Assembly: GCF_023973145.1 (NCBI RefSeq)
Contig: NZ_CP099546.1
Span: forward strand, 2,976,001-3,040,000
DNA from: Natronosalvus vescus
GTDB lineage: Archaea > Halobacteriota > Halobacteria > Halobacteriales > Natrialbaceae
Reading direction: 5' to 3'
Length of the DNA: 64,000 bases
The notes below the pieces were generated by a model, which saw only the letters and a list, made by a program, of their open reading frames with translations, made no database searches and was not told the DNA's origin. Position 1 is the stretch's first letter. Each line of letters starts with the position of its first letter. Shown here piece by piece: positions 35,102 through 41,117 of the stretch. The position numbers and the translations under genes are program-made.

Positions 35102-35623
35102 TTATTGACCCTCCGCGCGTGCTGGGTGGAGTTCGTCCGCGATCGGACTGTTCTCTTCGAAGTCGACCAGATCCTCCTCGTCGACGTCGACGACGTACGA
35201 CGGAACCCGCTGGCGCTGGCCGTCGAGGACGATGTGACCGTGCGTGATGAACTGACGCGCCTGTTGTGGCGTCTGGGCCAGCCCCTTGCGGTAGGCGACC
35301 GTCTGGAGACGGCGCTCGAGAACGTCCTCGACCTCGAGGCTCAGAACGGCACCGAGCTCGTCGGCTTCGTCGAGGATGCCGACGCGTTTGAGCCGTCCGA
35401 GGAACTCCTCGGTTCGGTTGATGACGGTTTCGTCGTCTTGCTCCTGAGCGAGCAGGTCACGGGCCTCGCGCCGGTAGGAGCGAAGTTCGGACTGGGCTCG
35501 CCAGAGCTCTTCTTTATTCTTCAGACCGTAGCGGTCGAGGAGCGAGTGCTCACTCGAGATCCGCTCGCCCTGGTAGGGGTGATTCGGCGTCTCGTACTGT
35601 TTGGTATTGGAGCCGAGTGGCAT
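35102..35623 (-). CDS. rps4: 30S ribosomal protein S4
   Basis: A 173-residue archaeal-type S4 with [21 protein letters not shown] at the N-terminus and the S4 RNA-binding domain ([40 protein letters not shown]). It initiates small-subunit assembly. It overlaps the S13 stop by 1 nt. Confidence 0.97.
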
Positions 35624-36141
35624 TATTCGTCATCCTCCGCCGCCGCTTCTTCGGCGGCTTCTTCACGGATCTCCTCGACGTTGACACCGATCGTCCCTTC
35701 GGTACGGCCGGTGGACTTCGTTCGCTGGCCGCGAACCTTCTGGCCGCGCTTGTGTCGAACGCCTCTGTAGGAGTCGATCATTTTCATCCGGTTGATGTCG
35801 TGCTGACGGGTCAACTGGAGATCGTTACCGGTTTCGTGGGAGGTCTCGCCGGTGTAAAAGTCCCGCTGGCGGTTGGTGAGCCACCCGGGAACGGTGTCGG
35901 CGTAGTTCTCGACGACTTCGATGACGTCGTCGATCGTCTCCTGGTCGAGCGCGCCGAACGTCGCCGTTCGGTCGACGCCCGCTTCGTCTGCGATGATGCG
36001 GGCGGTTCGTCGGCCGATCCCGTTCATCTCAGAGAGCGAGCGCTCGACGGACTTCGTCCCGTCCAGGTCTGTCTGCCCGATTCGGACGAAGTACTGAAGC
36101 TCGTCTTCCTCCTCGTGTTCTTGCGGTTCTTCCTCACTCAT
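35623..36141 (-). CDS. rps13: 30S ribosomal protein S13
   Basis: A 172-residue protein from the ATG at 36141; the longer frame upstream runs back into tRNA-Ser and is not coding. After an acidic N-terminus come [20 protein letters not shown], the helix-hairpin-helix [19 protein letters not shown] and the [29 protein letters not shown] tail region. It contacts tRNA and L5/L11 across the subunit interface. It opens the S13-S4-S11-RpoD gene run. Confidence 0.96.
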
Positions 36142-36242
36142 GTGTGGTTTTGCTATGGTGGTCGTGTGCGGTTCGAGGCGACCGTCTCCAACGACGGCGA
36201 CCAGCAGTGGTCGCTCGTCACCGGCAACAGTCGTCTGATCGA

Positions 36243-36325
36243 CGTCGTGGCGGGGATTTGAACCCCGGAGGCTTGACGCCACATGGTTAGCAACCATGCG
36301 CCTTGGGCCGCTTGGCTACCACGAC
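36243..36325 (-). tRNA. tRNA-Ser(GCT)
   Basis: An 83-nt type II tRNA. The acceptor stem pairs GTCGTGG with CCACGAC, with discriminator G as expected for serine. The anticodon stem CATGG/CCATG encloses loop TTGCTAA, giving anticodon GCT. A long variable arm is present. The T-arm reads CGGGG-TTCAAAT-CCCCG. It is intronless and CCA is not encoded. It immediately precedes S13, the known haloarchaeal arrangement, and is probably cotranscribed. Confidence 0.96.
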
Positions 36326-36473: not shown

Positions 36474-36480
36474 CTTATTA
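36474..36480 (+). promoter_or_regulatory. TATA-like element of the DUF4129 gene
   Basis: CTTATTA is 29-35 nt upstream of the GTG start at 36509, fitting leaderless transcription of the three-gene membrane module. Confidence 0.4.
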
Positions 36481-36508: not shown

Positions 36509-37423
36509 GTGCCTTCCACAGAGACGCTCACTCGAGTGGCGATCGTTCTCGTTGCAATCGTCGCCATCGGCCTGGTCGCCGCAACGATCAGTTCTCCGAT
36601 CGATCCCGGGAGCGAAGGCCTCGGTCCGAACGACGGCGACGGCGATGGCGAAATCGGCCCCCAGCCGGTCGAACACGGCGAAACGACGACCATTCCGTCC
36701 TTTTTCATCTACCTCATCTACGCGATGGGGATCCTTGTCGCCATCGCCATCGTCTGGTACCTGATATACTACCGGCGGGACGCCGTCAAAGCACTCGCAC
36801 TCGTGATCGCTACAGCGGCGATCCTCGTAGGGATTCTCTACCTCCTGCTCGAGTTGGGGGTCGACCTACCGACAGAGGAGCAACAAAACCAGACTGTAGA
36901 ATCGCCCGGGGACGGCGAGCCCGGTGGTGGCGACGGTGGCGACGGTGAGGAAGACATCGTCACACGGGAACTGGGGCCCTTTCTCGGCTTTCTCGTCGTT
37001 CTCGCAATGATTTTCGTGGGGGGACTCCTGTTGAGTGCTCGTTCGTCGTCGACCGACGAGAAACTACCAACCGAGTCGACGGACGCTCAACCGGACGAAC
37101 AGGCCGCCGTCGCCGCCGCGGCCGGCAGAGCGGCGAATCGGATTAGCGCTGACAGTACGGAAGACGTCGACAACGAAGTGTACCGGGCCTGGCGGGAGAT
37201 GACCCAGTTGCTCGAGGTCGACCGCCCCGAGACGACGACACCCGGAGAGTTCGCGACTGCTGCCACCGAGGCAGGCCTCGAGCGAGAGCACGTCGACGAA
37301 CTCACGCGGTTGTTCGAGGACGTCCGCTACGGCCACGAGGCGACAACGGCCGAGCGGGAAGAGCGAGCCGTGACGATCCTTCGTGCGATCGAATCCGCGT
37401 ACGGTGGCGGTGATGACGAATGA
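36509..37423 (+). CDS. DUF4129 domain membrane protein
   Basis: A 304-residue protein read from the GTG at 36509; a TTG one codon earlier is less likely. There is an N-terminal membrane helix, a Gly/Asp-rich external loop (about 30-55), two helices near residues 70-115, an acidic Gly-rich loop and a fourth helix (LGPFLGFLVVLAMIFVGGLLL). The C-terminal cytoplasmic domain (about 220-300) with EVYRAWREMTQLLEV, TPGEFATAA and LTRLFEDVRYG is DUF4129. In bacteria and Archaea DUF4129 genes accompany DUF58 and MoxR ATPases in an uncharacterised envelope-related module. The stop overlaps the DUF58 start by 4 nt. Confidence 0.88.
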   Translation: MPSTETLTRVAIVLVAIVAIGLVAATISSPIDPGSEGLGPNDGDGDGEIGPQPVEHGETTTIPSFFIYLIYAMGILVAIAIVWYLIYYRRDAVKALALVIATAAILVGILYLLLELGVDLPTEEQQNQTVESPGDGEPGGGDGGDGEEDIVTRELGPFLGFLVVLAMIFVGGLLLSARSSSTDEKLPTESTDAQPDEQAAVAAAAGRAANRISADSTEDVDNEVYRAWREMTQLLEVDRPETTTPGEFATAATEAGLEREHVDELTRLFEDVRYGHEATTAEREERAVTILRAIESAYGGGDDE

Positions 37424-39384
37424 ACGGGCGACGTCTCGCACTGGGTGTTGGCGTACTTCTGTTCTTCGTTGGCGTGCTCGCCATCCTCGGCATCACGTAC
37501 CTATCGGTTTCGCGGAACGCCATTTTCTTGATCGGTCTCGTCGTCATCCTGGCCGCGCTCAGCGGCCTGAGCAGCCGACGGGAAAAACGGCGCATTGCGG
37601 ACACGACCGATCCCGAACATCGAGCCACGGTTTCGACCCCGGGCCACGACCTGTCGAGGACGATCAACCAGTTCCGTACGGAGACGTACGGTTTCGCCGC
37701 TGACTCCCAGCGAATCGTCGAAGGGCTTCACGGCGCGGCCCTTGCCGTCCTCACCCGTTTCGATGGGCAGTCGGAGGCGGAGGCACTCGATCGAATCGAG
37801 AACGGTACCTGGACGGAGGACGACCGTGCTGCTGCCTTCCTCTCGTCCGATCTGGAGGCACCGACCAGATCCGTTCGGAACCGATTGGCAGCCGTGTTCG
37901 ACAGCCGAACGACGTTCAGACAGGACGTCAGTCGAACCGCTGCCACCATCGCCAGTATCGGCTACGGTGGGTTGGGCGAACGACCAGTTGCGACGGACAT
38001 TCCACAGTACGACCCGGAGGAACTCGATGACGTCACCCCACGAACGACGACTCTGAGCGTATCCGAGGTAACCGAACGCGCTGCCCGAGAGACGGGGTAC
38101 TGGACGGGCGTCGGTGCCCTCTCGTTGTTGGCTGTGGGTATCGGCGCGATAGCGGAATCGCCCGGCGTCGTGCTCGCCGGTGTCGTCGGTGTTGGCTACG
38201 CCGGGTCCGCCCACCTCCGCGTTGCGCCCCACCCGAATATTTCCCTCGAGCGAACGCTCAGCAACGAGACCCCTGATCCTGGCGAGGAGGTGGCGGTCAC
38301 CGTTACGATCACGAACGAGTCTGCCAGCTTCATTCCGGATCTCAGACTCATCGACGGTGTCCCGGCGGGCCTGGCGCTTACCGACGGGTCGGCACGACTT
38401 GGCACGAGCCTCAGACCCGAGGAGTCGGTCACGCTCGAGTACACCGTGACGGCCCGACGGGGCACTCACACGTTCGATCCGGCGCTCGTGATCACCCGTG
38501 ATCTCTCGCGGTCGAGCGAACGCGAGTGCTACGTCGGGACGGAGACGACGCTCGTGTCCCAGCCACTTCTGCGCCCGCTCGCCGCGACGATGCCGCTTCG
38601 ACCGGCCGCGGCCGCCTTCTCGGGGCAGTTGACCACGGCCGAAGCCGGCGAGGGAATGCAGTTCCACTCCGTGCGCGAGTATCGACGCAACGATCCGCTC
38701 AACCGCATCGACTGGAACCGACACGCCCGCTCGGGTGAGTTGGCGACCCTCGAGTTCCACGAAGAGCGCGCCGCACGCGTGCTCATTCTGATCGACGCGC
38801 GAAAGGCGTCCTACCTCGCGCCGAAGCCGGATGCACCCCACGCCGTCGACCGCGCTGTCGAAGCCGCCGGTTTGATCGCGGCGTCGCTGCTTGATGCCGG
38901 TGATACGGTCGGTCTCGCCGCCCTGGGGCCGGTCAACCGTACAGATACGAGACAGATCAACCTGCGTGATACCTGCTGGCTAGCCCCCTCCTCCGGTCAG
39001 CATCACCGCATCCAGTTCAGCGAACTGCTGGCGAGCCACCCGCAGTTCGCGACGGAGCCACCCCGCGGAAAGACACAGTGGCAGCCACAGCTCAGGATGA
39101 TCCGCCGTCGGCTCTCCGCCGAGACGCAAATTCTGTTCATCAGCCCGCTCTGTGATGCCACCGCCACCCGAATCGTACGGCGTCTTGACGCGCGCGGTCA
39201 CGCATTGACGGTGCTCAGCCCGGATCCGACCGCCGAGCGGACGACCAGCCAGCAACTCGCTCGCGTCGCTCGGCGCATTCGCCGGTTCGACCTCCAGCGG
39301 GCTGGAGTTCCGGTCATCGACTGGTCGGCAGACGAAACCATCGACGAGGTCATTGCACGAGCCAACGCGGGTGAGAACCGATGA
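37420..39384 (+). CDS. DUF58 protein with N-terminal DUF7269-like membrane domain (fusion)
   Basis: A 654-residue protein. Residues 1-200 resemble the haloarchaeal DUF7269 module: two membrane helices, then a soluble helical part (STPGHDLSRTINQFRTETYG). A second helix pair lies near 225-265, followed by a beta domain of the conserved-repeat (DUF11-like) type (about 270-365). The DUF58 region starts near 400, with the signature FHSVREYRRNDPLNRIDWNRHARSGEL and a VWA-like end with the VLILIDAR strand. DUF58 partners MoxR AAA ATPases in other genomes. Here DUF7269 and DUF58 look joined in one reading frame. The start overlaps the DUF4129 stop. The function is not known. Confidence 0.85.
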   Translation: MNGRRLALGVGVLLFFVGVLAILGITYLSVSRNAIFLIGLVVILAALSGLSSRREKRRIADTTDPEHRATVSTPGHDLSRTINQFRTETYGFAADSQRIVEGLHGAALAVLTRFDGQSEAEALDRIENGTWTEDDRAAAFLSSDLEAPTRSVRNRLAAVFDSRTTFRQDVSRTAATIASIGYGGLGERPVATDIPQYDPEELDDVTPRTTTLSVSEVTERAARETGYWTGVGALSLLAVGIGAIAESPGVVLAGVVGVGYAGSAHLRVAPHPNISLERTLSNETPDPGEEVAVTVTITNESASFIPDLRLIDGVPAGLALTDGSARLGTSLRPEESVTLEYTVTARRGTHTFDPALVITRDLSRSSERECYVGTETTLVSQPLLRPLAATMPLRPAAAAFSGQLTTAEAGEGMQFHSVREYRRNDPLNRIDWNRHARSGELATLEFHEERAARVLILIDARKASYLAPKPDAPHAVDRAVEAAGLIAASLLDAGDTVGLAALGPVNRTDTRQINLRDTCWLAPSSGQHHRIQFSELLASHPQFATEPPRGKTQWQPQLRMIRRRLSAETQILFISPLCDATATRIVRRLDARGHALTVLSPDPTAERTTSQQLARVARRIRRFDLQRAGVPVIDWSADETIDEVIARANAGENR

Positions 39385-39881
39385 TCGAAGTCACCAGACG
39401 CCCGACGCGGATTTCGAGTGTAGCTGCGACGCTCGCGGGCGGTGTCGCCGTCCTCTCGGCAGCCCTGGGTGGGCCGGCCGGCCCGACCGTTGGATTGGTC
39501 GGATTCCTCGTACTTGGTCTCGGTCTCCACCGCGGAATCTACGGCGCAGTCGACATCGGTGCCGGACTGGTGTTCCTGGGCGTCCTCTTCGGCGGGCTCC
39601 AGGGTGCGCCCGTCGAAGCGACGGTGCTCGGTGCCGTCACCGCGCTGGTAGCCTGGGATCTCGGTACCAGCGCCGTCGAACTCGGCTCCCAGCTCGGCCG
39701 GGAAGCCGACACTCGTCGTCTCGAGGGGGTACAGCTACTCTCGAGTCTCTCCGTCGGGTTGCTGACGGCGACGGTTGGCTACGGTGCGTACGTGTTCGGT
39801 GCCGGCGGCCAGCCCGCGGGTGCGGTGGTGCTCCTGTTGCTGTCGGTGTTGTTCGTGGTCGTCGGGCTGAAAGGTCGCTAG
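39381..39881 (+). CDS. DUF7519-like small membrane protein
   Basis: A 166-residue protein with about five hydrophobic segments (SVAATLAGGVAVLSAALGG, VGLVGFLVLGLGL, DIGAGLVFLGVLFGG, TVLGAVTALVAWDLG, VLLLLSVLFVVVGLKG). The soluble loop SAVELGSQLGREADTRRLEG lies between helices four and five. It is the usual last partner of the haloarchaeal DUF4129/DUF7269/DUF58 set, and its ATG overlaps the DUF58 stop by 4 nt. No catalytic motif is visible. The family assignment rests mainly on context. Confidence 0.75.
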   Translation: MIEVTRRPTRISSVAATLAGGVAVLSAALGGPAGPTVGLVGFLVLGLGLHRGIYGAVDIGAGLVFLGVLFGGLQGAPVEATVLGAVTALVAWDLGTSAVELGSQLGREADTRRLEGVQLLSSLSVGLLTATVGYGAYVFGAGGQPAGAVVLLLLSVLFVVVGLKGR

Positions 39882-39935: not shown

Positions 39936-40913
39936 CTAGACGCCGATGTACTCCTCGTTCAACTCCCAGTCGCCGGCCTCGTTTCGCACCATATACTCGC
40001 CGTAGTAGGGGACTCGGTTGGCGACGACCGCTCGAAACGCCTCCCGGATCTCGGCTTTCGTCATCTCCCCCATCGGGCGCAGGTCGTCGTTTCGGTTGAG
40101 ACAGCCTTTCAGATAGCCCTGATGGGTGACCCGGACGCGGTGGCAGTTCGCACAGAAGGTGGGGTTCTCGACGGGATCGACGATTTCGACCATGCCACGA
40201 CCCGTGCCGTCGTCCGCGCCGATCCAGTAGCGCTTGCGGTCGTGCATCTCGCGATGTTCGACCTCCTCTGCCTGTTCGGCGAGCCAGTCGTGAACGCGCT
40301 GGATGTCGACGTTCCACTCCGGTTTGCCCGTCAACTCGGGCATGTACTCGATCAACTGGAGCTGGAGGCCGTCGTTTTCGGCGACGTGGTCGACCATCTC
40401 GGGGACGTACCCCGCCGTGTGCTCGAAGACGACCATGTTGAGTTTGACCGGATCGAGCCCTGCATCCAGGGCCGCGTGGACACCTTCGATCACCTTGTCG
40501 TAGGCCCCGCTTTTCGTTACCGCGGCGAACGCCTCGGGATCGAGCGCATCCTGGGAGACGTTGACCCGCTCGAGACCAGCGTCGACGAGCGCCTCGGCCC
40601 GACCGGGGAGGAAGGTGCCGTTGGTCGTGAGCGAGACCTCCATCGAATTCGGTGTCCGGGTGATGATCTCCTCGAGATCCTCCCTGAGCATCGGTTCGCC
40701 ACCGGTGAATTTGACGGCCGTCACGTCGAACTCCGCGGCAACCTCGAGAAAGCGAACGACGTCGTCGGTGTCCATCTCGTCGTCCTGGGGGGCCATCGGC
40801 CCACGCGTGTCGCCCAACCCCTCGTTGTGACAGTAGACGCAGTCGAAATTACACCGATCGGTGAGCGAGACCCGAACCCCGGTTACCTCGCGTCCGAAGT
40901 CGTCGGTGAGCAT
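39936..40913 (-). CDS. moaA: GTP 3',8-cyclase MoaA (molybdenum cofactor synthesis)
   Basis: A 325-residue radical SAM enzyme that rearranges GTP to 3',8-cyclo-GTP, the first step of molybdopterin synthesis. The ATG at 40913 gives [20 protein letters not shown], followed by the SAM-cluster motif [19 protein letters not shown] binds SAM, and LTTNGTFL follows. The second cluster near the C-terminus is formed by CANC and the Cys of LKGCL. The product would serve the formate dehydrogenase-like enzyme at 8.5-10.6 kb and any molybdenum partner of the NrfD complex. It is monocistronic. Confidence 0.95.
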
Positions 40914-41117
40914 GCGAGACAATTGCGGTCGGATCCGCTTAAACACGTGGGCTTCACCGGCAGTTATGTAACCATTCGTGGTTACGTGCCAGGGCCGAAG
41001 AGCGGACGCATTCGGTTCACGCACGGCATGGTATGTGTCATCCGTGGGGGACATGTGCCAGATTGAGCCGGGCCCAGAAGCCCAACAGCTACCCCACTCG
41101 AGGTCGGAGGGAGTGGT

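Follow-up and report, generated by a model that had tools for sequence, protein, structure and literature searches.

A DUF7269-DUF58 fusion in a haloarchaeal membrane gene trio and its probable MoxR partner at a distant locus

In the NorQ-NorD complex, the NorD finger (residues 403-448) is essential for remodelling, and its helix touches the NorQ helix-2 insert within the pore, as described in a part of PMC13036017; a part of PMC9976466 assigns the MIDAS of NorD to the client and not to NorQ binding. A MoxR ATPase, a vWA protein and arCOG01314 (DUF4350) have been proposed as a secretion complex in an excerpt of Makarova 2015 (PMC5898192). According to a passage of PMC5700661 that cites other work, defects of the envelope and of cell shape in Rhizobium have been connected with Bat/cmd operons that contain MoxR and DUF58. 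Among haloarchaea, a DUF4129-DUF7269-DUF58-DUF7519 module with a convergent MoxR gene is found in Haloferax, Halogranum, some Halorussus and others. We found no open-access PMC article that names DUF7269 or DUF7519 or describes the module examined here, and the term DUF58 is absent from the main text of both NorQD papers (PMC13036017, PMC9976466).

The window, i.e., the whole 64-kb stretch of the Natronosalvus vescus genome that was analysed (2976001-3040000), carries a trio of genes with the following features.

36509..37423, plus strand: DUF4129 membrane protein gene (GTG start; ORF 36506/36509), by Pfam and ORF
37420..39384, plus strand: DUF7269-DUF58 fusion gene, 654 aa, by Pfam, ORF and models
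38608..38766, plus strand: DUF58 signature (fusion residues 397-449), proposed MoxR pore finger, by conservation and NorD-like position, at low model confidence
39381..39881, plus strand: DUF7519 membrane protein gene, 166 aa, by Pfam and ORF
36475..36480, plus strand: TATA-like TTATTA, by sequence, about 31 nt 5' of the GTG start
35102..36297, minus strand: rps4 and rps13, one of the two conserved flanks of the locus, by Pfam and relatives
39936..41054, minus strand: moaA-like radical SAM gene, the other conserved flank, by Pfam and relatives

As the first-pass annotation had stated, the three genes overlap by 4 nt each, both overlaps reading ATGA. The DUF4129 gene starts with GTG at 36509, with a TTG one codon 5', and the TTATTA at 36475 would fit a leaderless transcript of this gene. 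Its product comprises 304 aa from that GTG, with four membrane segments predicted by hydropathy and a C-terminal DUF4129 domain (Pfam, E 4e-13). The third protein matches DUF7519 (Pfam, E 1e-47) and has at least three membrane segments predicted by hydropathy. Pfam detected no DUF4350 in any of the three proteins, which are flanked by S13 and moaA. The annotated fusion of DUF7269 to DUF58 with a DUF11-like domain between them was borne out, since Pfam placed DUF7269 at residues 10-173 (E 9e-37), DUF11 at 274-345 (E 6e-6) and DUF58 at 417-598 (E 6e-12) of a single 654-aa protein. Its overall layout is DUF7269 (10-173), a membrane hairpin (about 227-259), an Ig-like/DUF11 domain (271-382), the signature (397-449) and a VWA domain (about 450-652); according to hydropathy, there are two hairpin regions, one within DUF7269 and the other N-terminal to the Ig-like domain. 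The trio thus keeps the gene order of the haloarchaeal four-domain module, and the description of it as a reduced form does not hold: DUF4129, DUF7269, DUF58 and DUF7519 are all retained, and the linkage to MoxR alone is lost.

AlphaFold2 models were obtained for the whole fusion (30 sequences, pLDDT 75, pTM 0.69) and for its C-terminal part (44 sequences, pLDDT 80.5). In these models, the Ig-like sandwich matches TRAP-complex chains, and the VWA domain resembles those of Rpn10, Rea1/MDN1, BatA/BatB and NorD, with a best Z of 12-13 for residues 449-652 against VWA chains. The NorD VWA domain of the NorQ-NorD complex aligned with a Z of 11.5 (3.7 A, 182 aligned residues), a score that generic VWA folds equal. 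When the fusion profile was searched against PDB sequences, the best E was only 0.14, and the NCBIfam comparison was uninformative.

Compared with the systems introduced at the outset, the trio is a split and fused variant of the MoxR-VWA machine kind. It has the same domains in the same order as the haloarchaeal four-gene module, a related DUF58 and, likewise, an A-type MoxR in the same genome; in the trio, however, DUF7269 and DUF58 form one protein, and MoxR lies at least 19 kb away, versus 0.5-4.5 kb from DUF58 in the four-gene module, where it is mostly convergent. With NorQ-NorD, as presented in the portions of PMC13036017 and PMC9976466 cited above, it shares a VWA fold, a candidate segment in the position that the finger takes in NorD and a MoxR-class ATPase in the genome; it differs in being membrane-anchored, in carrying an Ig-like domain before the VWA domain and in having D-x-R for D-x-S-x-S. 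The predicted arCOG01314 (DUF4350) secretion/membrane-remodelling complex, as outlined in the excerpt of PMC5898192, also combines a MoxR-type ATPase, an Ig-like/vWA protein and membrane proteins, but the trio is without DUF4350. Similarly, Bat/cmd systems pair MoxR with DUF58 and VWA membrane proteins, and the fold matches include the VWA domains of BatA/BatB, yet the trio does not look like a Bat set and the phenotype quoted in that passage of PMC5700661 is a bacterium's.

To follow the locus across the family Natrialbaceae, to which the host belongs, we used a comparison set of the host and 43 relatives, which was drawn from MoxR_A and module match lists and is not a random draw. DUF7269 and DUF58 formed one open frame in all 44 genomes. 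Within the host genus, the fusion was found in all eight genomes, the eighth of which (G117) was looked at apart, and is thus fixed across the genus. DUF4129 and DUF7519 adjoined the fusion in 43 of the 43 relatives, as did rps13 (S13), and moaA was present in the fetched piece in 42 of them. The trio is therefore real and conserved, an assembly error being ruled out by the same open frame in 44/44 genomes and matching flanks in 42/43.

The absence of a MoxR gene from the flanking sequence, claimed in the first-pass annotation, was confirmed: no MoxR (PF07726) is found in the 64-kb window, and the five of the genome all lie outside it. The nearest MoxR gene precedes the trio and ends about 187 kb from it; MoxR_A, the probable partner, starts about 337 kb after the trio. 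No MoxR was detected in the fetched pieces around the fused trio in any of the 43 relatives (0/43). Instead, the best MoxR_A match occupied a second locus with no module genes beside it in 43/43, with ppc in the same fetched piece in 38 of the 43; in G105, ppc is about 10 kb from MoxR_A, just beyond the fetched piece. Where the trio and MoxR_A are on a shared contig (38 genomes, host included), they are separated by at least 19 kb and at most 2.66 Mb, with a median distance of 135 kb. Walker A (VPGTGKT) and Walker B (VLADEI) motifs of MoxR_A were intact in 44/44. MoxR_A is the type that adjoins the same module in other haloarchaea, mostly convergent beside the unfused four-gene form. Most genomes also contain other MoxR paralogues as possible substitutes. 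In the host, we counted matches to 5 MoxR, 7 DUF58, 6 DUF4129, 4 DUF7519 and 6 DUF7269. Besides the trio, the host has the following further modules.

3349.3-3354.1 kb: module A, separate DUF4129, DUF7269, DUF58 and DUF7519 genes and convergent MoxR_A, directly after ppc
about 1470-1475 kb: module C, the same four genes unfused, MoxR being absent from the 18-kb piece
about 1785-1792 kb: module D, the four genes and MoxR
modules F and G (L052, L053): DUF58, MoxR and DUF4350
module E: MoxR, DUF58 and a DUF4129 protein

Modules F and G, and not the trio, look to be of the arCOG01314 kind. The first-pass annotation had regarded a MoxR gene in an identical second module elsewhere as evidence against its view. 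This applies in part: module A is indeed a second module with MoxR, but it is not identical, being unfused and 38% identical to the fusion over fusion residues 81-651.

We then determined whether the module and its candidate MoxR occur together. Across 391 genomes of the class, counting types w, A, C and D as module and types A and D as MoxR, with cut-offs (MoxR, E 1e-110; module, E 1e-20) placed at gaps in the lists after these had been seen, 335 had both, 51 had neither, 2 had the module only (G285 and G382) and 3 had MoxR only (G278, G301 and G397, the last being close to the MoxR cut-off), for a concordance of 386/391. Among 125 genomes of the family (MoxR_A, at least 480 bits; w- and A-type modules, at least 285 bits), 85 had both, 37 had neither, 3 had the module only and none had MoxR_A only, i.e., 122/125 were concordant, although the genomes in both tables are not independent. 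In two of the three module-only genomes, G060 and G061, the best MoxR shows 64-65% identity, and that of G061 is located near the module; the third is G117, in which a fused trio without MoxR_A was found in an assembly that is 66% complete. Since linked modules make part of this co-occurrence trivial, the telling cases come from genera where the pair is unlinked. There, eight genomes lacked both (G088, G021, G101, G109, G102, G107, G037, and G036). The trio site was closed, with S13 adjoining moaA, in six of the eight; G021 had 1.9 kb without module genes between S13 and moaA, and in G036 (assembly 55% complete, ppc contig 5.4 kb) moaA fell outside the fetched piece. At the second site, ppc was present and MoxR_A absent in the fetched piece in 8/8. 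On the ppc tree, the unlinked pair requires only four presence/absence changes, two of them forced by well supported branches, which is too few for significance in a sign test on independent pairs. The mirror-tree partial correlation was 0.31 for DUF58-MoxR, hardly higher than that for DUF58-ppc (0.27).

The fusion itself carries a candidate contact site for such a motor. The DUF58 signature (residues 397-449) is located as the NorD finger is, directly before the first VWA strand, and was modelled with little confidence (pLDDT about 43-60) as a strand, two short helices and a strand. The fusion alignment has 60 invariant columns, 14 of which fall within these 53 of 654 residues. In every one of the five groups compared, the signature exceeded the other two segments in conservation: its mean pairwise identity was 0.75 in fused modules without a neighbouring MoxR (0.64 and 0.63 for the other domains) and 0.81 in the relatives of module C (0.47 and 0.57). 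If the ATPase were dispensable, erosion of this segment would be expected. As for the MIDAS, the first Asp was retained in 97/97 aligned DUF58 rows and the last in 94/97, with Arg at position 3 (D-x-R, not D-x-S-x-S) in 96/97. We considered whether this change is tied to the loss of a neighbouring MoxR and rejected it, as D-x-R occurs whether MoxR adjoins or not; being found in nearly the whole DUF58 subfamily, it does not account for the split. Given that the NorD MIDAS serves the client in the cited part of PMC9976466, client binding is probably different in the fusion.

Since the module and MoxR_A are nearly always present or absent together, they are most likely still one machine, and distribution and position make a partner in trans well supported. 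Of the two options offered by the first-pass annotation, that the ATPase is elsewhere or dispensable, the former is upheld by MoxR_A at a second locus in 43/43 and by the 386/391 co-occurrence, and the latter is not. We therefore consider it probable that the trio encodes the membrane component of a MoxR-VWA complex, an AAA+ motor with its adaptor, whose motor is encoded at another locus and acts in trans. In such a complex, MoxR_A would form a cytoplasmic hexamer onto which the DUF58 VWA domain may dock, with the signature inserted into the pore as a finger, in the way that NorD engages NorQ. Movement driven by ATP would be passed to the membrane-anchored fusion and from there to DUF4129 and DUF7519, and a putative membrane or envelope client would be remodelled. 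Fusing DUF7269 to DUF58, elsewhere two neighbouring genes, would fix their stoichiometry at 1:1.

It is unlikely, in our assessment, that another MoxR paralogue (host types D to G), or several of them, drives the trio and that MoxR_A tracks the module for other reasons. Module C provides a precedent for modules without a neighbouring MoxR besides the trio, and 5 MoxR genes for 7 DUF58 loci make some sharing of MoxR likely in the host; however, it is the A type that adjoins the same module in other haloarchaea, and genomes without the module have lost the A type while retaining other MoxR types (best E values, about 1e-80 to 1e-90). We deem it rather improbable that the trio is independent of any MoxR, with the fusion replacing the role of the ATPase and the lone MoxR_A doing an unrelated job. 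The lack of an adjoining MoxR in all 43 relatives, the Arg at MIDAS position 3 and the module C relatives, which are likewise without a nearby MoxR, would be consistent with such independence, whereas MoxR_A without a module in 0/125 family genomes, a fused trio without MoxR_A in one incomplete genome only (G117), co-absence at two unlinked sites and a signature that remains the most conserved segment in unlinked modules all argue against it. An assembly or annotation artefact is next to impossible as an explanation of the fusion or of the absent MoxR, in view of the common frame and flanks described above.

As to how the proposed trans arrangement of trio and MoxR_A arose, fused forms made up one group of 41 rows (SH-aLRT 98) in a DUF58 tree of 92 rows, Halobaculum excepted, in which the fusion is independent. 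This group includes five rows with MoxR next door, and the unlinked fused Natrialbaceae forms (33 rows, 100) are nested inside it; the fusion was thus probably the earlier event and the separation from MoxR the later one. At least six switches between cis and trans were counted on this tree, and in six Halorubrum genomes an unfused module is also away from the closest MoxR. In the MoxR tree, the lone MoxRs grouped with those of unfused Natrialbaceae modules (95/90) and not with fused-module ones, which suggests a re-pairing of partners, although an AU test did not reject the alternative grouping with fused-module MoxRs (p 0.159). We tentatively propose that the ancestor of most Natrialbaceae may have lost a resident unfused module beside MoxR and that the resident MoxR_A then came to serve in trans a fused trio of another lineage, one that in other genomes is accompanied by a MoxR of its own. 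The DUF58 signature, being conserved, would then be the MoxR pore finger, and a DUF58 protein bearing it could work with a compatible MoxR regardless of where the gene for that MoxR lies.

Partners of MoxR are usually assigned by adjacency, which fails in much of the Natrialbaceae; distribution and two fixed loci point to MoxR_A as the partner where it does. An action in trans predicts one phenotype common to two unlinked deletions, of the trio and of moxR_A. If the signature is indeed the pore finger, DUF58 of bacteria and archaea would gain a defined mechanical role and a mechanism testable by mutation.

The host itself departs from six congeneric genomes in that module A is inserted between its ppc and MoxR_A genes. 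The host MoxR_A shares 91% identity with the lone MoxR_A of G112, and the host DUF58_A forms a long branch among unfused modules of other genera in the DUF58 tree, which suggests that module A was acquired. In another genome of the family, G103, which is outside the 43, MoxR_A likewise has a second module (L274) beside it.

Between ppc and MoxR_A, the MoxR ATPase proposed as the trans partner of the fused trio, the host carries module A, whereas the same interval contains no module in six other genomes of the genus. The host loci considered here, with the DNA pieces that cover them, are as follows.

Host 3346.4-3354.1 kb (L049:398-8055): module A, between ppc and MoxR_A
Host 1470.0-1475.1 kb (L050:8033-13075): module C, unfused DUF4129, DUF7269, DUF58 and long DUF7519
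Host 47-65 kb (L052): MoxR, DUF58 and DUF4350
Host 2816-2832 kb (L053): MoxR, DUF58 and DUF4350

No MoxR was found around module C within the 18-kb piece L050, nor at the module C loci of 5/5 relatives (pieces L140-L144, of which L142 ends 2.7 kb downstream). The gene content of L052 and L053 resembles the secretion complex proposed by Makarova et al. 2015 (PMC5898192).

In G116, a genome of the host's genus, the rps13-moaA locus holds two adjacent, divergent fused trios (L064:1442-8754). Outside the Natrialbaceae, Halobaculum litoreum (Haloferacaceae) carries a DUF7269-DUF58 fusion of independent origin (L110:9019-10941), which is adjoined by MoxR. In Halorubrum (L116, L118, L121, L122, L123, L131, L195-L200), the closest MoxR is unlinked to the module, as for the Natrialbaceae trio, and DUF7269 and DUF58 are encoded separately.
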